A DNA stretch of 64,000 nt from an uncultured Pelagibacteraceae bacterium. GTDB taxonomy: Bacteria; Pseudomonadota; Alphaproteobacteria; Pelagibacterales; Pelagibacteraceae. Numbering within the stretch: the first letter of the stretch is position 1; every line of letters begins with the position of its first letter. The notes beneath the pieces are model-generated. The model worked only from the letters and a program-made list of their open reading frames with translations. It searched no databases and had not been told where the DNA came from. Of the stretch, positions 1,018-15,751 are shown one piece after another. The translations under genes and the position numbers were made by a program. Location: the NCBI GenBank assembly GCA_902537845.1, contig CACBDC010000001.1:1-64000 (forward strand), in the 5' to 3' direction.

Positions 1018-1027
1018 ATTCTGTTTA

Positions 1028-1096
1028 GGGACGTTCAGTTACCTGGTGCCGTGAACCTTTTAACATTATTCCTTATTATACGCCATTTGCAATTTT
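1028..1096 (+). repeat. diverged tmRNA-tail repeat (att-like remnant 1)
   Basis: The core reads GACGTTCAGTTACCTGG, three changes from the GCGTTCTGTTGCC core found in the other six copies. Downstream, positions about 1061-1096 match the copy at 5185 nearly base for base (AACATTATTCCTTATTAT, then CATTTGCAATT). On the minus strand this resembles a tmRNA coding-piece end with resume codon GCA AAT and a shortened tag frame. I read it as the oldest attachment-site remnant of the island. That is inference from similarity only. Confidence 0.6.
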
Positions 1097-1155
1097 ATTT
1101 ACAAAAAGATAAACTAACGTTACTTCATTTTTATCTATAAAATTAATAAAATTGT

Positions 1156-2184
1156 ATGAAAAAAATTGCAATAACTGGTGGTTCGGGTTTTTTCGGAGAG
1201 TATCTTATTAATTTCATGCTCTCAAAAAATATTGAGTGTTTATCTATTGATATTAATTCTCCTGACAAAAAAAATAATAAATTCTCATTTGAAAAAATAA
1301 ACATATGCGATCAAGAAAAACTATCAAATAGCCTGAATGATATTGACGCGATATTTCATTGTGTCGCGAACGTCCCTCTTGCAAAAAATAAAAAACTTTT
1401 TAAACATACAAATATTTTAGGAACAAAATCTATACTGGATGCAAGTTTAAGAAAAAAAATAAAAAAAGTAATAATACTCTCTTCAAGTGCAGTTTATGGA
1501 ATTCCAAAAAAAAATCCTGTAAATGAACAAAGTGAGACAATCCCTAAGGAAGATTACGGAAAAAGTAAACTTGAAGCTGAACAAGTATGTTATGATCCAA
1601 AGTATAAAGACTTAGATATTACAATAATTCGTCCCAGAACGATTATGGGACACGGACGTTTGGGTATATTTGAAATTTTATTTGACTGGGTAAGCAAAGG
1701 ATACAATGTTCCAGTTTTAAATAATGGAAAAAATATCTATCAGTTTATTCACGCAAAAGATTTGGCTAAAGCTTGTTTCATTTCCTCAAAATTAGAGGGT
1801 ATAAACTTGATTAATTGTGGTACAGAAAAATATTCAAGCATGTATGAGACTTTAAGTAATTTATGTAAATACGCAAACACAGGATCAAAAATTAAATCTT
1901 TACCTTTGGGGTTGATAGAGCCAATCATGAATGTATCTTCTTTTTTAAAGCTTTCACCTCTTGCTCCTTATCATTCATTAATGTATGGCAGATCGCTTTA
2001 TTTCGATAATAAAAAAATTAACGCTTTAGGATGGACATCAGAGTATTCCAACGATCAGATGTTTAGAGAAAGCTATGACTGGTATTTGGCTAATAAAGAT
2101 AATATAGGTTTACAAAATCAAAAAAGTGCTCATAAAAACAAAGTTCAGCAAAAAATTTTAAAACTTCTAAGATATTTATTATAA
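1156..2184 (+). CDS. NAD-dependent epimerase/dehydratase (extended SDR)
   Basis: The 342-residue product is an extended short-chain dehydrogenase/reductase. It has the dinucleotide motif GGSGFFG at residues 8-14, the SSSAVYG active-site strand near 109-115, and the catalytic pair Tyr134 and Lys138 (YGKSK). Family members epimerise, dehydrate or oxidise nucleotide sugars or 3-beta-hydroxysteroid-like substrates; which applies here is unknown. It starts a compact rightward operon with the GMC-type oxidoreductase (2 bp gap) and the UbiA-family prenyltransferase. Together these suggest a redox or epimerisation step on a polyprenyl-linked sugar or lipid. Confidence 0.75.
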   Translation: MKKIAITGGSGFFGEYLINFMLSKNIECLSIDINSPDKKNNKFSFEKINICDQEKLSNSLNDIDAIFHCVANVPLAKNKKLFKHTNILGTKSILDASLRKKIKKVIILSSSAVYGIPKKNPVNEQSETIPKEDYGKSKLEAEQVCYDPKYKDLDITIIRPRTIMGHGRLGIFEILFDWVSKGYNVPVLNNGKNIYQFIHAKDLAKACFISSKLEGINLINCGTEKYSSMYETLSNLCKYANTGSKIKSLPLGLIEPIMNVSSFLKLSPLAPYHSLMYGRSLYFDNKKINALGWTSEYSNDQMFRESYDWYLANKDNIGLQNQKSAHKNKVQQKILKLLRYLL

Positions 2185-2186
2185 AA

Positions 2187-3962
2187 ATGAAAACAGTAAT
2201 TCAAAATCTTGTTTTTTTTATAAACGACATTACAGATATAATAGTTAAAAAAGAGGGAATAAAAGATTTTAGTCGATCAAACAGAAGACAACTTTTAGCT
2301 CATTTTCTAAAGAGCCAGCAATTAATTAAATTTTTTTTTCTTGTTCATTTATTTTTTCTTAATATTTTCTCATTTTTAATAGGTTTAAAATCACTCAAAA
2401 GCCTCTCTTTGTCAAAAAGAGAAAAGTTATATAAAATATTTGAAAAGAGAAATTTAGTAAGATTTAAAAAAATTACAGAATTAATTACTGCTCTTGTTTT
2501 TTTAATAAAATACAATAATGAAAAATTAATAAATCAAAAGAAAAGCTCCTCTTTCCAAAACAAAAAATATTATGATAATATTGTGATAGGCTCTGGCCCG
2601 AGTGGAGCTGTTACAGTCAATAATTTGCTGAAAAATAAGTTTCAAACTTTATTAATCGAGCAAGGGTATAAAACATCAATTCCAAAAACTAAACATCCTG
2701 CAACAGAATTTTATCATAAGTGGAAATATTCAGGATTATCAGGAGCTGTAGGAAAATATGATTTACAATTTGCATCAGCTGAGTGTTATGGAGGAGGAAG
2801 CGAAATTAATAGTGGTCTATATCATGAAATTGACGAACTATTCATAAAAAAATTAATAAATAAAAATGATATTAAAAATTTAATTAAATCTAATGATGAA
2901 TGGAAGTCAATTACTTCATCAGATAATTTTGAAGCTCTGAGTCAGAGGGATAAAAATTTGACTAATTATTTTACAGACGGCTCCAAAGTTTTGGGCTGGA
3001 AATACGAGAGTATTAAAAAATTTTTTAAAACCAATGGCAGCGCTTTAAAACAATCAATGACGTCTACTCTTTTGAAAGAAGCTGAGAGATCTGGTTTAGA
3101 ATTGTTATTGGGTCATAAGGTAAAAAAAATTTTGAGAGATAAAGATAAATGGAAAATAACCTTTTCTAAAAGCCCAATGGAGATATCGTGTAAAAACCTT
3201 TTTTTGTGTTGTGGCACCCCATACACTTTGAACTTATTAAAAAAAAGCGGAATAATGTCCTGGACATATAATGATAATTTTCATTTTCATCCAATGATTA
3301 AAATTGTTGCAAAATTTCCACTAAAGGTAAATCACAATATAAATAAAAATGTTATCTCAGCACAAATTACTCAATTTTATCCAAACTATCTTTTTGGGAA
3401 TGCCGCAAGTGATATTCAATTTTTAAAGATTAGTGCAATAGGCAATAAACTATTTAGCAAAGATGTCGATAAAAATTCTGAACACATGGCTATTTTACAT
3501 GCAACTTTCACTAATGGAAAATGTAATTTTATTAAAATCCCATTTATAGATGAGCCAATAATCACTTTTAAAATTAATAAAGAAGAGGCTCAAACAGTGA
3601 AAGAAGGTTTACTTAATTTAATTAAATTTGCTTTCAAATCAGGTGCTGAATATGTTTACATTTTAGACGATTCAAAAACAAAATTAGAGAGTTTTGATGA
3701 AGAAAAAATTAAAAATATTTTGAAAAAAATTAAGTTAAGTTTTTCAGCAGTTCACTTGCTTGGTGGAATAAATTTTGGTGAAAAAAAAGAAAATTTATTT
3801 GACTCATTTGGAGAGTGTAAAATTAATAAATTTAAAAACCTATTCGTAAATGACTCATCGCTTATCTCAGAAAATTTACTTAAAAATCCGCAAGGAGCAA
3901 TCATGAGTTTAGCTCAAAGAAATATTGATCATTTTATAAGGGAACAAAAGAATGATAAGTGA
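2187..3962 (+). CDS. GMC-type FAD-dependent oxidoreductase with long N-terminal extension
   Basis: The 591-residue product carries an FAD-binding Rossmann motif, NIVIGSGPSGAV, at residues 131-142. A GMC-like middle region follows (ECYGGGSEINSGLY), and a C-terminal block (LFVNDSSLISENLLKNPQGAIMS) is typical of GMC oxidoreductase C domains. A 125-residue basic extension precedes the fold and includes a hydrophobic run at about 48-68 that could bind membrane. The family oxidises alcohol groups with FAD; the substrate here is unknown. The 3' end overlaps the UbiA gene by 11 bases, so the two are probably translated together. Confidence 0.75.
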   Translation: MKTVIQNLVFFINDITDIIVKKEGIKDFSRSNRRQLLAHFLKSQQLIKFFFLVHLFFLNIFSFLIGLKSLKSLSLSKREKLYKIFEKRNLVRFKKITELITALVFLIKYNNEKLINQKKSSSFQNKKYYDNIVIGSGPSGAVTVNNLLKNKFQTLLIEQGYKTSIPKTKHPATEFYHKWKYSGLSGAVGKYDLQFASAECYGGGSEINSGLYHEIDELFIKKLINKNDIKNLIKSNDEWKSITSSDNFEALSQRDKNLTNYFTDGSKVLGWKYESIKKFFKTNGSALKQSMTSTLLKEAERSGLELLLGHKVKKILRDKDKWKITFSKSPMEISCKNLFLCCGTPYTLNLLKKSGIMSWTYNDNFHFHPMIKIVAKFPLKVNHNINKNVISAQITQFYPNYLFGNAASDIQFLKISAIGNKLFSKDVDKNSEHMAILHATFTNGKCNFIKIPFIDEPIITFKINKEEAQTVKEGLLNLIKFAFKSGAEYVYILDDSKTKLESFDEEKIKNILKKIKLSFSAVHLLGGINFGEKKENLFDSFGECKINKFKNLFVNDSSLISENLLKNPQGAIMSLAQRNIDHFIREQKNDK

Positions 3963-4827
3963 ATTAAAATATCTAAGATTTAGTCATATCTTTAAAAATT
4001 TTTTAATTCTAGCACCAATTTTGGGATCACAAGGTTTAGAAAGTGAGTTTAATTATTTCTTATTTATAAATGGATTAATTTCTTTTTCTCTTCTTACACT
4101 AAGTTGTTATTTAATAAATGATTATACTGATAAAAAAACTGATAAAAAAAATGTTTTAAAAAAGAAAAAATATTTAGCTTTGAGTAAAAAAAAGGTTTTT
4201 TTAATTCTTAGTTTATTAATATTTTTATTTATTATCCACGGATTATATTTTTCAATTCTAAACAATATATTTCTCTTTTGTTATTTTTTAAATTTTATTC
4301 TTTATAATTTCTACCTTAAAAAATTTAAGATTATTGACTTATTGATGCTGAATAATTTTTATATGATAAGAATTTTGTATGGAGCTAAGTTATTTGTTAT
4401 CGATATAACATTTGGTTTTTTGATATTCTTTTATTTTTTATTCCTAGGTTTATCAACTGCTAAACGTTTAATACAAGTTTCTTCAAATAAACTCAAAAAA
4501 AATAATGTTATTTCTCCTTATTACATTGGAGATAAAATAATCTTAAAAAAAAATATTTTGTTTTCTTTTTTTACCACTCTTATAATCCTAGTTCTTTTTA
4601 TTTTAAATATTCGAAATATTATTTCTCTTGAAGATAAAATTTTTTTACCTTCATTCTTAAATTTTACGGAAACATTAATTTTGTTTAGCTTCTATGCCAT
4701 ATGGATAATGCGTTGTTATTATTTAATTAGTAAAAATAGAATTAAAATAGATATTTATAAATATTACATTGAAGACAAATTTAGTTATCTTTTATTATTA
4801 ATATTTCTTTTAATTTTTTTTTCATAA
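3952..4827 (+). CDS. UbiA-family polyprenyltransferase
   Basis: The 291-residue, strongly hydrophobic product has about eight or nine predicted membrane spans. The first aspartate-rich motif is NDYTDKKTD at residues 56-64. The second cytoplasmic loop has AKRLIQVSSNK, which resembles the KRLAE-type loop of decaprenyl-phosphate phosphoribosyltransferases more than ubiquinone enzymes. It should transfer a sugar phosphate or aromatic group to a polyprenyl carrier. With the upstream SDR and GMC oxidoreductase it recalls the prenyl-phosphoribose synthase, oxidase and reductase trio of DPA synthesis. That parallel is inference and the substrate is unproven. Confidence 0.7.
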   Translation: MISELKYLRFSHIFKNFLILAPILGSQGLESEFNYFLFINGLISFSLLTLSCYLINDYTDKKTDKKNVLKKKKYLALSKKKVFLILSLLIFLFIIHGLYFSILNNIFLFCYFLNFILYNFYLKKFKIIDLLMLNNFYMIRILYGAKLFVIDITFGFLIFFYFLFLGLSTAKRLIQVSSNKLKKNNVISPYYIGDKIILKKNILFSFFTTLIILVLFILNIRNIISLEDKIFLPSFLNFTETLILFSFYAIWIMRCYYLISKNRIKIDIYKYYIEDKFSYLLLLIFLLIFFS

Positions 4828-4830
4828 TTC

Positions 4831-5172
4831 GTGAGTAAAATTAATTCTATTTTTGTTTATGGGACACTGCAAATCGGGAAACAACATGAGAATATTTTGA
4901 GAGAATTAGGGGGAAATTGGCAAAAAGGATATGTATACGGTAAGTTGACTAATGTAAGTGCTGGTCCTGATTATGGTTACCCTTGCCTTAAATTAGATAA
5001 AAAAGGTGTAAAGATATACGGCATGGTTTTTGACTCAAAAAATTTAGAGAAAAAAATTGAAGAAATCGATAAGTTTGAAGGAAAAAATTACAAGAGAGTA
5101 GTTACAGAAATATATTTGGAAAATGGTTCAAAAATTCAAGCCTATTTGTATGAACTAAAGAAAAAAAATTGA
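4831..5172 (+). CDS. gamma-glutamylcyclotransferase (AIG2-like) family protein
   Basis: The 113-residue product has the family glycine motif VYGTLQIG near residues 9-16 and a matching acidic DKFEGKNYKR block near 80-89, where the catalytic glutamate lies. The length is typical of small AIG2/GGCT-like proteins, which cyclise gamma-glutamyl amines or peptides to 5-oxoproline. The start is GTG, three bases after the UbiA stop. It closes the four-gene unit between the tmRNA-tail repeats at 1028 and 5185. Confidence 0.7.
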   Translation: MSKINSIFVYGTLQIGKQHENILRELGGNWQKGYVYGKLTNVSAGPDYGYPCLKLDKKGVKIYGMVFDSKNLEKKIEEIDKFEGKNYKRVVTEIYLENGSKIQAYLYELKKKN

Positions 5173-5184
5173 AAAGATTAGAAA

Positions 5185-5250
5185 GGGGCGTTCTGTTGCC
5201 AGATACCCGGACTTTGTAACATTATTCCTTATTATCTACCATTTGCAATT
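5185..5250 (+). repeat. tmRNA-tail repeat with extended similarity (att-like remnant 2)
   Basis: It holds the exact 11-mer GCGTTCTGTTG at 5188-5198, followed by CCAGATACCCGGAC, close to the native CCAGGTGCCCCGGAC at the ssrA end. Similarity to the repeat at 1028 continues to about 5250 (AACATTATTCCTTATTAT and CATTTGCAATT). On the minus strand it again gives GCA AAT followed by a short frame to a stop, like a degenerate tmRNA tag. It separates the four-gene unit on the left from the protease/DUF2784 unit on the right. Confidence 0.7.
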
Positions 5251-6431: not shown

Positions 6432-6794
6432 GTGTACGAATTATTTGCAAATCTTACTTTAATTGTACATTTAATTTTTATTTTATTTGTTATTTTTGGT
6501 GGATTGCTTTTTTTTATTTTTTCAAAAATCATCTATATTCACCTCCCAGCATTATTATGGGGAATTTATATAGAACTAACTAATGCTGTTTGTCCACTAA
6601 CTTATCTCGAAAATTGGTTTTTATATAAAGGAGAGTTAACAACCTATTCTAATGATTTTATTAATAACTATTTTTTTCCAATAATCTATCCTGAGGGCTT
6701 AACTAATGAAATTCAAATATATCTTGGTATATTGCTTATAGTTATTAATATTTTAATTTACGGATTTATTTTTAAAAATTTTAAGAAAAAATAA
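6432..6794 (+). CDS. DUF2784-family membrane protein
   Basis: The 120-residue product has three to four hydrophobic spans and the family block LPALLWGIYIELTNAVCPLT with a following LENW, which marks DUF2784. Its biochemical role is not known. The start is GTG, 13 bases after the protease stop. The stop codon abuts the tmRNA-tail repeat at 6795, so this unit ends with almost no spacer. Confidence 0.65.
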   Translation: MYELFANLTLIVHLIFILFVIFGGLLFFIFSKIIYIHLPALLWGIYIELTNAVCPLTYLENWFLYKGELTTYSNDFINNYFFPIIYPEGLTNEIQIYLGILLIVINILIYGFIFKNFKKK

Positions 6795-6815
6795 GGAGCG
6801 TTCTGTTGCCAGGTG
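6795..6815 (+). repeat. tmRNA-tail repeat (att-like remnant 3)
   Basis: GGAGCGTTCTGTTGCCAGGT at 6795-6814 contains the shared 11-mer at 6798-6808. Similarity to ssrA ends after CCAGGTG, where the sequence turns into AATTATTTTTAAG. It lies within 1 bp of the DUF2784 stop codon and 25 bp before the next start codon. Confidence 0.75.
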
Positions 6816-6839
6816 AATTATTTTTAAGTATATTTAATT

Positions 6840-7037
6840 ATGTTTTTTGGATGGCTTAAAGGTATATTAGCTAATTTCTTAATTTGGCTGGGATTAACAT
6901 GCATTGTTTATGGAATGTATTTATTTGGCGATGAAAGAAATGGAACAGTTTCACTAATAATTGGAGTTATTGCTGGTACTGCTGGCTCATATTTTAGATA
7001 CGTTTCGAAACAAACTGTTAGAACTACAAAAAAATAA
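6840..7037 (+). CDS. 65-residue two-span membrane protein
   Basis: The frame MFFGWLKGILANFLIW starts with an amphipathic hydrophobic helix, has a short polar turn (GDERNGTVS) and a second glycine-rich span (IIGVIAGTAGSYF), and ends with a basic tail (VSKQTVRTTKK). I do not recognise it. It is the only gene in a 249-bp unit bounded by tmRNA-tail repeats at 6795 and 7044 and fills about 80 percent of that unit, which gives the unit a gene-cassette appearance. Confidence 0.55.
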   Translation: MFFGWLKGILANFLIWLGLTCIVYGMYLFGDERNGTVSLIIGVIAGTAGSYFRYVSKQTVRTTKK

Positions 7038-7043
7038 ATTTTA

Positions 7044-7063
7044 GGGGCGTTCTGTTGCCCGGC
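7044..7063 (+). repeat. tmRNA-tail repeat (att-like remnant 4)
   Basis: GGGGCGTTCTGTTGCCCGGC at 7044-7063 contains the shared 11-mer at 7047-7057. Only TTGCC to the right matches the tmRNA before divergence. It lies 6 bp after the stop of the 65-residue membrane protein. Confidence 0.75.
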
Positions 7064-7203
7064 AATAGATTAGAAATCGGCATATTTGCTCACTAATCAA
7101 AACTACTTCGTTGTAAACTTCGTTGAATGATATCTTTATTTTACCCAAAGTTTGCCTTTTGACTTCGTTGAAAAACTCTAAAAATTTAACTAGATTTATT
7201 CTA

Positions 7204-7578
7204 GTGAAAAAATTTTATATCATATTTATTTTATTTTTGTATTCAGAAATACTAGATGCAAAAACAACAAACTTAAGTTGCAAAGTTGATGGAAAAACTT
7301 ATTCAATAATTGTAGATGATGAAAACAAGAAAGTTACTTGGTTAGATAAAATAGTTGAAGCAAAGTTTTCTGCAACGACTGTAAATTTTATTGTTCATAA
7401 TGAGGAACACAAACCAGGGTCGGGTGTTTATGTAGTTATAAGTTATTCAATCAGCAGAGAAAATCTTGGAATTGTTCAAACAGTAAGTATGATTACGCCA
7501 ATATTAGATAGCAATGAAACTCTAGATAAAAAAACTGGAATTTGCGAAATTGGAAAAAAAATAGAGACCAAGTTTTAA
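7204..7578 (+). CDS. small exported protein of unknown function
   Basis: A GTG at 7204 gives a good signal peptide (VKKFYIIFILFLYSEILDA) followed by a mature domain of about 105 residues with two cysteines (NLSCKVDG and TGICEIG), possibly a disulfide. An upstream in-frame TTG at 7123 would add 27 residues ahead of the signal, so I prefer 7204. I do not recognise the family. It is the only gene of the 536-bp unit between repeats at 7044 and 7581. Three copies of ACTTCGTTG lie upstream, at 7105, 7117 and 7162. Confidence 0.5.
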   Translation: MKKFYIIFILFLYSEILDAKTTNLSCKVDGKTYSIIVDDENKKVTWLDKIVEAKFSATTVNFIVHNEEHKPGSGVYVVISYSISRENLGIVQTVSMITPILDSNETLDKKTGICEIGKKIETKF

Positions 7579-7580
7579 AG

Positions 7581-7632
7581 TGGCGTTCTGTTGCCAGGTG
7601 CCCTTAACCTTGTTTATTAAATCAGTTTAATA
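7581..7632 (+). repeat. tmRNA-tail repeat with stem-loop mimic (att-like remnant 5)
   Basis: It contains the shared 11-mer at 7583-7593 followed by CCAGGTGCCC, then a perfect 8-bp stem TTATTAAA/TTTAATAA at about 7613-7632. The native ssrA has an equivalent A/T-only hairpin after its tag stop codon. The hairpin lies over the stop codon of the leftward 82-residue gene and may act as its transcript end. Confidence 0.7.
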
Positions 7633-7875
7633 ACCACAATTAATACGTCTACTTGTTTTACCATATAATGGAATAGCTAATTGACAATTTTGTTCAACTA
7701 TTCTTTTAACTAAAGTACTAGTCACCATAGTTAAACGAAGTTCATTTCTTACATCCTCAACATCATCTTTGGTAGCCCAATGATTTCCAGCCAAAACATT
7801 ATTTGGTGTCCATATTTTAATGTTTAAAGAAACTAAACAGATTGCAATAATTGTTAAAATTATTTTTAAGTACAT
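7627..7875 (-). CDS. 82-residue exported or membrane-anchored protein
   Basis: It begins with an uncleaved or cleavable N-terminal hydrophobic segment (MYLKIILTIIAICLVSLNI), followed by a charged soluble part with two cysteines (EQNCQLAI and RINCGY). A strong ribosome-binding site, AAAGGAG, stands 5 bases before the ATG. It is the sole gene between repeats at 7581 and 7891 and runs leftward, unlike the cargo to its left. I do not recognise the family. Confidence 0.55.
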   Translation of the reverse strand: MYLKIILTIIAICLVSLNIKIWTPNNVLAGNHWATKDDVEDVRNELRLTMVTSTLVKRIVEQNCQLAIPLYGKTSRRINCGY

Positions 7876-7890
7876 TTGCTCCTTTCATTA

Positions 7891-7912
7891 GGGGCGTTCT
7901 GTTGTCCGTCCC
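7891..7912 (+). repeat. left attachment junction of the integrative element
   Basis: GGGGCGTTCTGTTGTCCG at 7891-7908 contains the shared 11-mer at 7894-7904. To its left the sequence is island; to its right it diverges at once into element DNA. Two GGTACATAGT arm repeats and then the integrase gene follow within 90 bp. It pairs with the junction at 15461, where the same 11-mer continues into intact ssrA. Confidence 0.8.
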
Positions 7913-7949
7913 AATTCAACTTATAACAGAATATAACACTTTTTGAATA

Positions 7950-7971
7950 GGTACATAGTAAGGTACATAGT
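7950..7971 (+). repeat. arm-type integrase binding repeats, left arm
   Basis: Two direct copies of GGTACATAGT lie at 7950-7959 and 7962-7971, 12 bp apart and 45 bp from the left core. The same decamer recurs three times beside the right core in the same orientation. Paired arm repeats on both sides of a core site are the usual recognition sites of the N-terminal domain of lambda-type integrases. The role is inferred from position. Confidence 0.65.
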
Positions 7972-7978
7972 CTTTTGG

Positions 7979-9208
7979 TCATTTCTTTGTAATCACTTTT
8001 AAATTTTTAGTAGATTTCTTTCTTTCAGGAAATACTTGATTGTGAATTTCTAATAAATGGTCATCTGACAATACTGAATAATGTTGGTTAATCATTTGAG
8101 GACTATTATTAGAGTGAAGTGCCAGAACATTAGTATCTACACCTTTCTTTCTTCTACCAGTAATAAATGAGTGTCTATAAACATAGATTGGTCTTTTTCT
8201 GCCGTCTTCTAACTCATACAAACCTAATTCATTAGATAATCTTACAAAGTTCTTTCTTATTCTTTCAAATAACTTTTCTCTATTTTCTACTTTAGGAAAA
8301 AACAAGTAATCAAGTTCATTACAATTTTGGTGTCTGTTTATAATTCTAGGATAAACATCATCTCGCCACCAATCTGCTAATGTAAATGTATGTTCTTGTT
8401 TTTTAGTTTGTAATAATCTCATTTTAATTACAGGTTTATCGCTGTGTGGGTCGTTTATAAAACCAATATGATTTCTTCTTACTCTTAAAAGTTCTAAACC
8501 AGGTCTAGCGCCACTACTACTATCACAAGTAGATAAGTAGTCTGCTGTTTCGTCATAAAAATTATCTTCAGTAATTCGCCATTCATCTTTAAATCTATTT
8601 CTAATTTGTTTTCTTTCTTTAGGTTGATAACCAACTCTCTTAATACCTTTGCCTGTTAATCTAGGAAATTCTGGTACTTGGTCAAATGGTACTTTGTTAT
8701 TCTTTAATGCTTTATTCATTTGATTACTTAAAATGATTTTATAATTTCTTTGTGTCGCTACTGCTTTGCCTTGTTCATTTAAGTTGTAAAATATTTCTGT
8801 AATAGCGTCATCAACTTCAGATGGATTTGTATAATCAATTCTTTCTAAAATAGTTTTCATCTCATTATTGAATTGACCTTGTTCTTTTTTATTTCTTTGA
8901 GGATTTACAAGTTCTCTACTTTTGAAATAAGGTAATGCTATATCTTTGTAATAACTTCTCTCAACTTTTTTGATTTTATTTTTATTCTTCTCAATTTCTG
9001 ATTTGAAATCAAAATTCTTAAATACTTTAATCGCTTCTTTTTCTGCTTGTCTTTCTTCAGAAACTTTTAGTGATTGAGTATGACAACCATTGTTGTTGTA
9101 TCCTTTACAAACCCAAAATCTTACATAGTAAAATTTACTTTTCTTTTCGTACTTGTAAATTTTCGCTGGTATTCTTTTGAGTTGTTTTTGTTTTTCTATC
9201 TTCGGCAT
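7979..9208 (-). CDS. tyrosine recombinase / phage-type integrase
   Basis: The 409-residue product has an N-terminal basic arm and SAM-like core-binding region followed by a tyrosine recombinase catalytic domain. Visible residues include the box I arginine in SSGARPGLELLRV, a lysine-rich beta hairpin (LLQTKKQEH), box II as VYRHSFITGRR, His in LALHSNNS, and the probable nucleophile Tyr in INQHYSVL. The first His of the HxxR motif is a Tyr here. The gene ends 8 bp from the arm repeats and faces the left junction, the standard position for an integrase acting on its own attachment site. Expected function: integration and excision at ssrA. Confidence 0.85.
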   Translation of the reverse strand: MPKIEKQKQLKRIPAKIYKYEKKSKFYYVRFWVCKGYNNNGCHTQSLKVSEERQAEKEAIKVFKNFDFKSEIEKNKNKIKKVERSYYKDIALPYFKSRELVNPQRNKKEQGQFNNEMKTILERIDYTNPSEVDDAITEIFYNLNEQGKAVATQRNYKIILSNQMNKALKNNKVPFDQVPEFPRLTGKGIKRVGYQPKERKQIRNRFKDEWRITEDNFYDETADYLSTCDSSSGARPGLELLRVRRNHIGFINDPHSDKPVIKMRLLQTKKQEHTFTLADWWRDDVYPRIINRHQNCNELDYLFFPKVENREKLFERIRKNFVRLSNELGLYELEDGRKRPIYVYRHSFITGRRKKGVDTNVLALHSNNSPQMINQHYSVLSDDHLLEIHNQVFPERKKSTKNLKVITKK

Positions 9209-11747: not shown

Positions 11748-12488
11748 ATGACCGTTTATTTCTATGGAAGAAATAGTGATAGTGAGAGTTTTGAAAAAGG
11801 AAGTTCAATAGAAACTCAATTATCAAAGTGTAAATCATACGCCAACATCAAAGATTTAAAGATTGATGTTGAAATAACAGAACAAGTATCTGGAACGACA
11901 AATTTTGAGAGGCGTGAGAAAGGTAGTGAGTTGTTAAGTCTTTTAAAAAAAGGTGACCATATAATTTGTTCTCATTTAGATAGATTTAGTAGAAACACAT
12001 TAAACTTACTAACTCTTGTTGAAAAATTTAAAAAACAAAAAGTTAGTCTTCACTTTGTAGATATTGGAAGTGAGGTGACAGGTACAGATGCTATGGGTAG
12101 TGTGTTCTTTAAACTTCTATCTGTATTCGCTGAATTTTACGCCAAACAAGTTAGTGAAAAATCAAAAGCGACTAAACAGCGTATGATTAAAGAAAACAAA
12201 TACACTGGAGGATTTAGACCTAAATTTGGTTATGATGTAGATGACAATGGTTATCTAGTTCCTTGTGAGAAAGAACAATCAATTATTAGATTGATGAAGA
12301 TTTTAAGGAAGAAAGGTAAGTCATATAAAAAGATTTCTGAAGTAGTGACCAAATCTACTCGTAAGAAATTTCCTCAATCTTGGGTTTTCAATATTCTTAA
12401 AAGAGAGAATACGATTCCACCAAATGATAGTGTGTTAATTCACAACATTTGTAATACAGAACTTCAACCAAATATGTGTGATGTTTAA
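11748..12488 (+). CDS. serine recombinase (resolvase/invertase family)
   Basis: The 246-residue product starts with the resolvase catalytic strand YFYGRNSDS, where Ser10 is the expected nucleophile next to Arg8. It continues with CSHLDRFSRN near residues 73-82, containing the conserved DRxxR, and FAEFYAKQVSEKSKATKQ, which marks the long E helix. A short recombinase-domain region and a C-terminal helix-turn-helix-like stretch follow. It lacks the large C-terminal zinc domain of serine integrases, so resolution or inversion is more likely than integration. A clear RBS, AAAGGAG, precedes the ATG. It leads an operon of exported proteins. Confidence 0.8.
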   Translation: MTVYFYGRNSDSESFEKGSSIETQLSKCKSYANIKDLKIDVEITEQVSGTTNFERREKGSELLSLLKKGDHIICSHLDRFSRNTLNLLTLVEKFKKQKVSLHFVDIGSEVTGTDAMGSVFFKLLSVFAEFYAKQVSEKSKATKQRMIKENKYTGGFRPKFGYDVDDNGYLVPCEKEQSIIRLMKILRKKGKSYKKISEVVTKSTRKKFPQSWVFNILKRENTIPPNDSVLIHNICNTELQPNMCDV

Positions 12489-14586: not shown

Positions 14587-15378
14587 TTTTCTCTCCTCAT
14601 CTTAAGTAGTTTGACTTCGTCAAACGAAACTTCGTTTCGTACCTATTGTTGAAACTCATTAGAAATATATTCTGACGAGATGTTTTTAGATGTACTTCAC
14701 CTATCCGAAATAGGTGAAATATTACACATCTGACGCTGACGCCTTTGAGTGTCTTTAATCTGAAAACTTACTCTCGTAAGATTACTCGGGTTGTCCGAAT
14801 TTAAGTTTTACATCAACTTCATACAACGGTACTTGTATTAGTAGAAACTGATTAAATAATCTCTACTTTACTCTTTCAGTTTTATTTTATTAAAGTGAGA
14901 CCTTAACTGCTTATCTCACTATCATTATAAAAAAATTTGATTGTCGTACCAATCTCAATTTGAATTACGAAACCACAACTTTTACATTGTTTCGTATAGT
15001 CGTTATTGTCCTATAAAACTTGATATGTAAATTTTGTTGAACCGATATATTGTTCTCTTTAATCAACTCAACATATGTCATTTTTAACTATTTCTAAAAA
15101 TGTACTTATCTTTAAATATTTATAAGTATTAAGTTTTTGACTTACGAAAAAAATATGACGATTAGCGTAAAACTTCTATCTGTCATATCTAATCTTCATT
15201 TCTTCACATAACTTCACATATATTCTAATTGTTCATTAGTCATAGATGTGTGTATTTTTAAGTAGTTAGTCTTTTGAGTACATTTACTCACAAAATTTTT
15301 TAGACCTCTCCAGCGTCTTCTAAATCAGTTATTTTAAATTAAAGAGATTACTTAAAATGTTCTAAATTTTTTAGTCTA
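14587..15378. other. hairpin-rich non-coding region of the element
   Basis: No frame with a credible start and RBS is visible in about 0.8 kb. There are instead many short inverted repeats. TTTGAC-TTC-GTCAAA at 14610-14624 directly abuts a 7-bp stem-loop at 14624-14640. A perfect 9-bp stem with loop CCGAA lies at 14696-14718, a 5-bp stem at 14767-14780, an 8-bp stem TACGAAAC/GTTTCGTA at 14966-14996, and a 6-bp stem TGAGTA/TACTCA at 15275-15290. AACTTCACATA occurs twice near 15205-15220. The region could be a replication or transfer origin or encode a structured RNA; I cannot tell which. Confidence 0.5.
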
Positions 15379-15411
15379 GGTACATAGTCAGGTACATAGT
15401 CGGTACATAGT
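15379..15411 (+). repeat. arm-type integrase binding repeats, right arm
   Basis: Three direct copies of GGTACATAGT lie at 15379-15388, 15391-15400 and 15402-15411, with 12 and 11 bp periods, ending 51 bp before the right core. They match the two copies by the left core exactly and in the same orientation. This is the arm layout expected of an integrase attachment region. Confidence 0.65.
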
Positions 15412-15460
15412 AAAATATTTTTTGAAAAGTGAAGTGGTACAACGAATTGTACCACTCCTA

Positions 15461-15483
15461 GAGCGTTCTGTTGCCAGGTGCCC
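15461..15483 (+). repeat. right attachment junction, within the ssrA 3' end of the coding piece
   Basis: GAGCGTTCTGTTGCCAGGTG at 15461-15480 carries the shared 11-mer at 15463-15473 and runs without a break into the native tmRNA sequence CCCCGGACCCCG. The two bases before the core differ from the left junction (GA versus GG), as expected if the element supplies the final bases of a restored tmRNA end. Confidence 0.8.
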
Positions 15484-15716
15484 CGGACCCCGTTACTTAA
15501 TTAACAAAGTTAATTAAGCTGCAAGTGCAAATTTTTGATTTGCAATTATAAATTAGCCCGTTACGTCGGAACCATCTCGTACGAAAGAATAGCCTTTAGA
15601 CATCCGTCGATCCTGATTCACCCCCATAAGTTGTAAATGGTGGAGGTGGTGGGTACTGCCCCCACGTCCGTAATGTTTATTACGAAATTCGTTTATCGTC
15701 ATAGTTGGAAAACCAA
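15461..15716 (-). ncRNA. ssrA: circularly permuted two-piece tmRNA
   Basis: On the minus strand the acceptor piece comes first and ends in CACCTCCACCA at 15638. A 12-base spacer follows, then the 5' end of the coding piece at 15625 reads GGGGGTGAATCAGGATCGAC. GGGGGUG pairs over 7 bp with CACCUCC, including the G3-U pair used by alanyl-tRNA synthetase. A T-like arm GTGGG/CCCAC has loop GGCAGTA. The tag frame at 15543-15514 is GCA AAT CAA AAA TTT GCA CTT GCA GCT TAA, encoding ANQKFALAA. A perfect 10-bp A/T-rich hairpin starts at the stop codon. The permuted order is known for alphaproteobacterial tmRNA. It rescues stalled ribosomes, and its 3' coding end is the attachment site here. Confidence 0.9.
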
Positions 15717-15723
15717 CACTATT

Positions 15724-15751
15724 AATATAAAACTCTTTTACAGAGATTCAA
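15724..15751 (-). promoter_or_regulatory. ssrA promoter
   Basis: TTGAAT at 15751-15746 and TATATT at 15729-15724 are separated by 16 bp and point leftward into the acceptor piece. A start near 15716 would leave almost no leader. It lies in the space before the thyX start codon, so ssrA and thyX are transcribed divergently from overlapping promoter DNA. Confidence 0.5.

Follow-up and report, generated by a model that had tools for sequence, protein, structure and literature searches.

A GMC oxidoreductase, an SDR and a UbiA-fold protein encoded on a SAR11 cassette: a candidate route to an epimerised polyprenyl-phosphate pentofuranose

We analysed 64,000 nucleotides of DNA (the window) from the start of contig 1 (CACBDC010000001.1) of an uncultured Pelagibacteraceae bacterium, whose incomplete genome (901 kb, 75% complete) has its closest relatives in SAR11 (Pelagibacteraceae). 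The subject is a set of three genes at 1156-4827, which encode an extended SDR, a GMC-type FAD oxidoreductase and a UbiA-fold protein and are followed by a small fourth gene. The original prediction described the three as overlapping or nearly touching, and the open reading frames (ORFs) are indeed found there, all on the + strand and co-directional: the gap between the SDR-A and GMC genes is 2 bp, the GMC and UbiA genes overlap by 11 bp, and the GGACT gene starts 3 bp after the UbiA gene. For these genes we computed family assignments, active-site conservation, co-occurrence and cassette limits. The features are:

1156..2184, + strand: SDR-A, extended SDR (NAD-dependent epimerase/dehydratase family), 342 aa; proposed reductase/epimerase of a lipid-linked sugar
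2187..3962, + strand: GMC-type FAD oxidoreductase, 591 aa; proposed membrane-associated oxidase of polyprenyl-phosphate ribose
2187..2560, + strand: N-terminal (NT) domain of the GMC protein (residues ~1-124); five helices, partly hydrophobic
3952..4827, + strand: predicted UbiA-fold polyprenyl-phosphate phosphoribosyltransferase (PPPRS/DPPR-synthase type), without fused HAD phosphatase, 291 aa
4831..5172, + strand: GGACT gene (AIG2-like gamma-glutamyl cyclotransferase fold; PF06094, 50.9 bits), final gene of the 4.0-kb cassette

The encoded proteins

The UbiA-fold protein scores close to the cut-off of PF01040 (cut-off 34.2; 32.9 bits when the protein was scanned, 35.3 bits when the genome was) and matches NF006088 (E-value 1.2e-28; the E-values from Python searches with hidden Markov models refer to small databases). 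A sequence search of the PDB returned a sole match, the DPPR synthase of M. tuberculosis (8j8j, 2.8e-8). A profile built from 44 module UbiA homologues found the same structure with an E-value of 6.4e-62, as compared to 3.4e-12 for the next UbiA enzyme, and the fold search also ranked it first (TM-score 0.75, E-value 3.4e-7; next enzyme 7.4e-4). The mycobacterial enzyme Rv3806c contacts the 5'-phosphate and the lipid phosphate through K28, Y70, Y157 and K191, and the UbiA superfamily reportedly does not share its phosphoribose-binding sites (PMC10994848). In the module protein the equivalents of these four residues are K15, Y53, Y137 (a Y/F position) and K171, whereas the canonical UbiA of SAR11 has G, C, F and a gap at the same positions. 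The conserved substrate-contact residues comprise K15, Y53, N56, D60, K70, Y118, K123, Y137 and K171; the Mg/ribose motif N..D..D (N73 and D77 in Rv3806c) is present as N56, D60 and D64, invariant in 44/44 sequences; and of the pyrophosphate-binding K/R cluster (R22, K87, R90 and K143 in Rv3806c), R9, K70 and K123 are retained, with K73 in place of R90 in the window. By family match, nearest structure and contact residues the earlier description of the protein as phosphoribosyltransferase-like was correct, and judged from its sequence it is probably of the polyprenyl-phosphate phosphoribosyltransferase type.

An ordinary prenyltransferase (of quinone or haem synthesis or of aromatic prenylation), with a superficial likeness to phosphoribosyltransferases, would likewise have the UbiA fold, and the module protein is the sole UbiA found in the incomplete genome. 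We nevertheless consider this very improbable, with DPPR synthase being the nearest structure by sequence, profile and fold alike, and with a separate canonical 4-hydroxybenzoate octaprenyltransferase present in 6/6 SAR11 relatives checked, three of which are module carriers (305-317 bits; cut-off 275). The family of that enzyme, TIGR01474, is not matched by the module protein, and the residues for the 5'-phosphate and the lipid phosphate occur in the module protein only. A quinone role, which had been named in advance as an outcome that would overturn the prediction, was therefore rejected.

The GMC protein scores barely above the cut-offs of PF05199 (26.0 bits) and PF00732 (23.1 bits), and it has the characteristics of the superfamily: GMC_oxred_N and GMC_oxred_C domains, the FAD motif GxGxxG and the catalytic His/Asn. 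The AlphaFold2 model of the whole protein is confident (pLDDT 90, pTM 0.92) and has fructose dehydrogenase, cholesterol oxidase and choline oxidase as its nearest solved folds. In the alignment, H523 and N567 take the places of H447 and N485, the catalytic residues of cholesterol oxidase, and 58/58 relatives have both. The N-terminal stretch, originally described as an unusual 125-residue extension, is real, with five helices that are confident in the AlphaFold2 model (residues 2-22, 30-41, 45-66, 75-88 and 90-109) and no Pfam family; nor is it confined to this protein, since in many relatives it is a separate ORF beside GMC. It is fused to GMC in SAR11, many Verrucomicrobia and Marinimicrobia, and Cyanobacteria, SAR86 and others encode its homologue just in front of GMC, a distribution that suggests a physical partner of GMC. 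The domain is probably a membrane anchor, and it may resemble the N-terminal region of long-chain alcohol oxidases. Three further SAR11 loci (L006, L007 and L008, of genomes G187, G099 and G195) encode a distant GMC, each after a separate hydrophobic ORF of ~100-130 aa and adjoining an aminotransferase-like or SDR gene; these are GMC-plus-small-partner systems without UbiA.

SDR-A matches the NAD-dependent epimerase family PF01370 (116 bits), its alignment contains TGxxGxxG and YxxxK, and it is 46% identical to the SDR-A encoded on pNGR234a, the symbiotic plasmid of Sinorhizobium fredii NGR234. A second SDR, SDR-B, which is highly conserved (mean column identity 65%), accompanies the set in most relatives; nothing was found for it in 289 sampled Alphaproteobacteria, a set that had no positive control.

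Recurrence across genomes

A scan with the GMC alignment alone, restricted to one genome per species, recovered 75 loci, and linkage was counted over the 48 GMC loci that are flanked by 5 kb or more on each side. A PPPRS-like UbiA gene is present in 40/48 of these loci, SDR-A in 45/48, UbiA together with SDR in 37/48, SDR-B in 39/48 and an SMR transporter gene in 10/48. The loci with UbiA are distributed over seven phyla: Cyanobacteriota, Verrucomicrobiota, Planctomycetota, Acidobacteriota, Deferribacterota, Fidelibacterota and Pseudomonadota (SAR11 and SAR86). No UbiA or SDR-A was seen around 26 other GMC genes of the order, which lie on short-flanked loci. A prevailing separation of GMC and SDR from UbiA, which would have spoken against the prediction, was thus not what we found, and the recurrence of the set in other SAR11 genomes (in varied orders) and across phyla points to a grouping beyond chance.

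The gene order is HAD-UbiA, GMC, SDR-B, SDR-A in Verrucomicrobia and NT, GMC, SDR-B, SDR-A, SMR, UbiA in Cyanobacteria, both strongly conserved, and either SDR-A, GMC, UbiA or GMC, UbiA, SDR-A in SAR11. In many relatives a HAD phosphatase is fused to UbiA (e.g. L051: PRK08238, 644 bits), whereas UbiA is unfused in SAR11. The distances between the proteins co-vary over the loci (Spearman 0.68 for UbiA/GMC and 0.62 for SDR/GMC; 0/500 shuffles as high). Within SAR11 the correlation between SDR and GMC distances is 0.11, and we therefore do not claim strict co-inheritance of all three genes inside that group.

These data bear on the idea that two separate pathways are merely co-located as island cargo, UbiA making a lipid-linked ribose and GMC plus SDR acting on a sterol-, hopanoid- or alcohol-like compound. 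The best SDR matches do include sterol-4-alpha-carboxylate 3-dehydrogenase, and GMC matches cholesterol oxidase. The linkage, however, extends over seven phyla and over chromosomes, SAR11 islands and rhizobial plasmids, and it comes with HAD-UbiA fusions, SMR flippase genes and a conserved order, so that we regard two unrelated pathways as quite improbable.

In other SAR11 loci the module adjoins genes for polytopic proteins of 380-605 aa that are GT-C-like by hydropathy only; the polytopic neighbours in SAR11 and on pNGR234a (380-658 aa) gave no match to GT-C Pfam families. Two of the SAR11 module loci lie beside rRNA genes, as does the surface-polysaccharide (lipopolysaccharide) island HVR2 (PMC2217521). 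The surface-glycan use that had been suggested for the product is consistent with this context of rRNA-linked surface islands and polytopic GT-C-like neighbours, and with the SMR flippases in relatives. A search of phages and viral contigs gave no GMC match, and carriage by phages or viruses was rejected for GMC.

The whole set is also carried by rhizobial symbiotic plasmids, among which pNGR234a:

L123 7495-15560 (pNGR234a 299625-307690): HAD-UbiA (PPPRS-PRP), SDR-B, a 658-aa protein with ten transmembrane segments, GMC, a 125-aa NT-like protein, SMR, SDR-A

The 125-aa protein in the place of NT stays below the threshold of the NT profile, and its equivalence to NT therefore rests on position and size. 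SDR-B occurs on other rhizobial plasmids as well. The genes of the pNGR234a set presumably bear y4n names; within the open-licence literature we found neither a paper on those names nor a function for the set, nor a paper that joins a GMC oxidoreductase with UbiA glycan synthesis, and the gene set is apparently undescribed there.

Cassette limits and tmRNA-derived repeats

The SDR-GMC-UbiA-GGACT block sits between two copies of a short repeat that derives from the tmRNA gene:

1025..1045, + strand: tmRNA-derived repeat, left cassette edge
5182..5202, + strand: tmRNA-derived repeat, right cassette edge
6792, 7041, 7577 and 7888 (span 6792..7908), + strand: four more tmRNA-derived repeats
15423..15733, - strand: tmRNA gene (ARAGORN), which holds the source copy of the repeat at 15457-15477

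In total seven copies of this ~20-bp tmRNA piece, including the one inside the tmRNA gene, are present in one orientation and none elsewhere in the window; shuffled sequence gave 0 matches. In the related cell AG-901-E15 (L038) the same block is found, 4.0 kb long, with 86% DNA identity and open frames. Its alignment with the window runs exactly from 1155 to 5170, and the flanks are unrelated: the homology stops at the stop codon of the GGACT gene, and the L038 block adjoins tmRNA without the downstream elements of the window. The module was found in 4/297 sampled genomes of the order. The sharp limits, the repeats, the match to L038 and the sparse occurrence together indicate that the module behaves as a discrete exchangeable cassette, and the earlier suggestion of acquisition as cargo gains support from its repeat-bounded limits.

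The sparse occurrence, together with a break in the UbiA frame in one other SAR11 locus (L041), could also be taken to mean that the SAR11 copy is decaying mobile cargo with no current function. We give this very little credence: the three genes are intact in the window, L038, L039, L042 and L043, and in L038 the frames have stayed open at 86% DNA identity. In L041 (9508-10345) UbiA lies in two overlapping frames (102 and 182 aa) within an otherwise intact module, by frameshift or assembly error, and is followed by a polytopic protein of 553 aa. In L043 a GGACT gene (7498-7896) lies just upstream of GMC; it has no BLAST match to the GGACT gene of the window (4831-5172), and both are attached directly to the module.

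The repeats divide the first 15.5 kb of the window into segments: the SDR-GMC-UbiA-GGACT block, an HtrA-like gene with DUF2784, small ORFs and an integrase element. The array looks like serial cargo insertion at the tmRNA gene and is reminiscent of tandem att-site accretion. A 33-bp repeat, at 7940-7972 and 15369-15401 (with the motif AGGTACATAGT twice), lies beside a putative tyrosine-recombinase gene and beside the tmRNA gene, and its copies are candidate recombinase-binding sites. The putative tyrosine-recombinase gene itself (7979-9208) has no Pfam match and was recognised by eye from an RHSF...H..Y motif; a serine recombinase/resolvase gene (11748-12488; PF00239, 101 bits) lies within the same element.

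A candidate pathway and its known counterparts

We propose that the product of the cassette is an epimerised polyprenyl-phosphate pentofuranose, made with a non-orthologous replacement of DprE1/DprE2 and serving as donor for a surface glycan, and estimate the probability of this reading at about two in three. In its core, the independent way to an epimerised prenyl-phosphate sugar that was originally suggested is backed by the type of UbiA, the gene linkage and an oxidase outside the DprE1 family. The substrate, the position of oxidation, the product, the order of the steps, the flippase and the transferase are what we infer as follows. The UbiA-fold enzyme would move 5-phosphoribose from phosphoribosyl pyrophosphate (PRPP) onto undecaprenyl (polyprenyl) phosphate, after which the 5'-phosphate would be removed, in many relatives by the HAD domain that is fused to UbiA, in SAR11 by a host phosphatase. 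The GMC protein, held at the membrane via its NT helical domain, would oxidise one hydroxyl on the ring of the lipid-linked ribose, at C2 or C3, to a ketone, which SDR-A would reduce from the opposite face to give an arabino-, xylo- or other epimer; most relatives would have a further SDR-B step. A flippase, in relatives the SMR protein, may then turn the donor across the membrane for use by a GT-C enzyme, and in SAR11 the pathway would move as a 4-kb cargo cassette.

Several observations weigh against this scheme. The position of R90 in Rv3806c is K, N or D across SAR11 and Q135 is not conserved, so that the donor could differ from PRPP and some doubt stays. The SAR11 GMC is only ~25-30% identical to the members outside SAR11. 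The SAR11 cassette contains no phosphatase, flippase or GT-C gene, on a contig that ends 1.1 kb upstream. An SDR-B orthologue was not found in SAR11, where only SDR-A-level scores were obtained, and the SAR11 product may therefore differ or its pathway be shorter. The SAR11 SDR-A sequences are not a single clade, which gives the SDR a partly separate history. Finally, some Actinobacteria, the main exceptions to the linkage, have GMC, SDR-A and SDR-B without an adjoining UbiA.

These last genomes, and the presence of two SDRs plus GMC in most relatives, which exceeds the needs of one epimerisation, also favour an alternative in which the UbiA step stands and GMC and SDR give a non-epimeric donor (a keto- or carboxy-pentose, reduction elsewhere, or a different lipid-linked sugar). 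The ALO family (PF04030) was found in 5/5 of the Actinobacteria-type genomes with this UbiA-less set, with the ALO gene near a UbiA gene in two of them; it gave no match in the source genome (75% complete) and was not found in 32/33 genomes with GMC beside UbiA, many of which are incomplete metagenome-assembled genomes. If the actinobacterial ALO proteins are true DprE1, we suggest that the product of the GMC set there is probably not arabinofuranose. We still hold a non-epimeric donor to be unlikely, as the one oxidase and one SDR of SAR11 are the minimum for an epimerisation like that of DprE1/DprE2, and SDR-A is an epimerase-family protein with YxxxK. Tentatively, and with much less confidence than we place in the epimerised donor itself, the module may be read as a third, evolutionarily independent oxidase/reductase set, a GMC with a membrane NT domain plus extended SDRs, by which at least seven phyla epimerise polyprenyl-phosphate ribofuranose or alter it in another way. 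Given the coexistence with ALO-family proteins in some Actinobacteria, its product would be a pentofuranose other than arabinose, possibly lyxofuranose and possibly new to bacterial glycans, and in SAR11 it would be a tmRNA-linked surface-switching cassette.

If the proposed route is correct, the gene set is a genomic marker for a widespread and unrecognised way in which bacteria other than mycobacteria make lipid-linked pentofuranoses. DprE1 and DprE2, a pair of drug targets, would then have a counterpart unrelated to them, genes on the legume-symbiosis plasmid pNGR234a would be assigned a pathway, and a streamlined ocean bacterium would be seen to gain surface-sugar chemistry through a cassette of 4 kb. 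Direct testing is possible in cultured carriers (HTCC9565, 'Ca. Pelagibacter ubique'; Arthrospira; Planktothrix; NGR234).

Compared to known enzymes, the module GMC shares its fold, FAD motif and catalytic His/Asn with cholesterol oxidase, fructose dehydrogenase and the pyranose oxidases, whose members oxidise sugar or membrane-lipid alcohols; unlike these it constitutes a separate subfamily, marked by the motifs EINSGL[YF]H and FHFHPM and by the NT domain, and its fold matches are 11-16% identical to it. DprE2 belongs to the classical SDRs. SDR-A, as an extended epimerase-type protein (PF01370), is not of that kind, and the oxidase lacks the FAD_binding_4/ALO signature of DprE1, which bears out the expectation that the GMC protein belongs to another family. 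The mycobacterial pathway to decaprenylphosphoryl arabinose (DPA; Rv3806c, Rv3807c, DprE1/DprE2, Rv3789) has in common with the module the family of the first enzyme (8j8j), the logic of an FAD oxidase plus an NAD-dependent SDR and, in relatives of the SAR11 module, an SMR-type flippase; the module differs by its GMC-fold oxidase and extended SDR, and no Rv3807c-type phosphatase was seen in it.

The three-component system of Kelly et al. (2024) starts with HAD-UbiA, which produces polyprenyl-phosphate ribofuranose from PRPP. Epimerisation follows, by an SDR or by homologues of DprE1/E2, before the lipid-linked pentose is exported by a flippase and used as donor by a GT-C enzyme; their O-antigen system comprises the PPPRS ORF15 (HAD-UbiA), the MATE flippase ORF14, the GT136 enzyme ORF12 (GT-C) and the SDR epimerase ORF13 (PMC11127046). 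The module resembles it in the PRPP-type UbiA (often HAD-fused in relatives), the epimerase-type SDR, the surface-glycan context and, in relatives, the adjoining GT-C-like and flippase genes. The cassette of the window encodes a PPPRS by homology and residues; a linked flippase and a PRP/HAD phosphatase were not found in it. The differences are the GMC, of which the paper (PMC11127046) makes no mention, with its NT domain, usually an SDR-B, and SMR instead of MATE. The rhizobial noeC(N)HOP operon for Nod-factor arabinosylation, like the pNGR234a set, combines a DPPR-synthase-type first step with a location on a symbiotic plasmid. Its noeC, noeH and noeO reportedly have their orthologues among the mycobacterial DPA genes (PMC5080398); the pNGR234a set has GMC, SDR-A, SDR-B and SMR instead. 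Deletion of noeN, the proposed phosphatase gene, merely lowers the arabinosylation of the Nod factor (PMC5080398), which makes an unlinked phosphatase plausible for SAR11.

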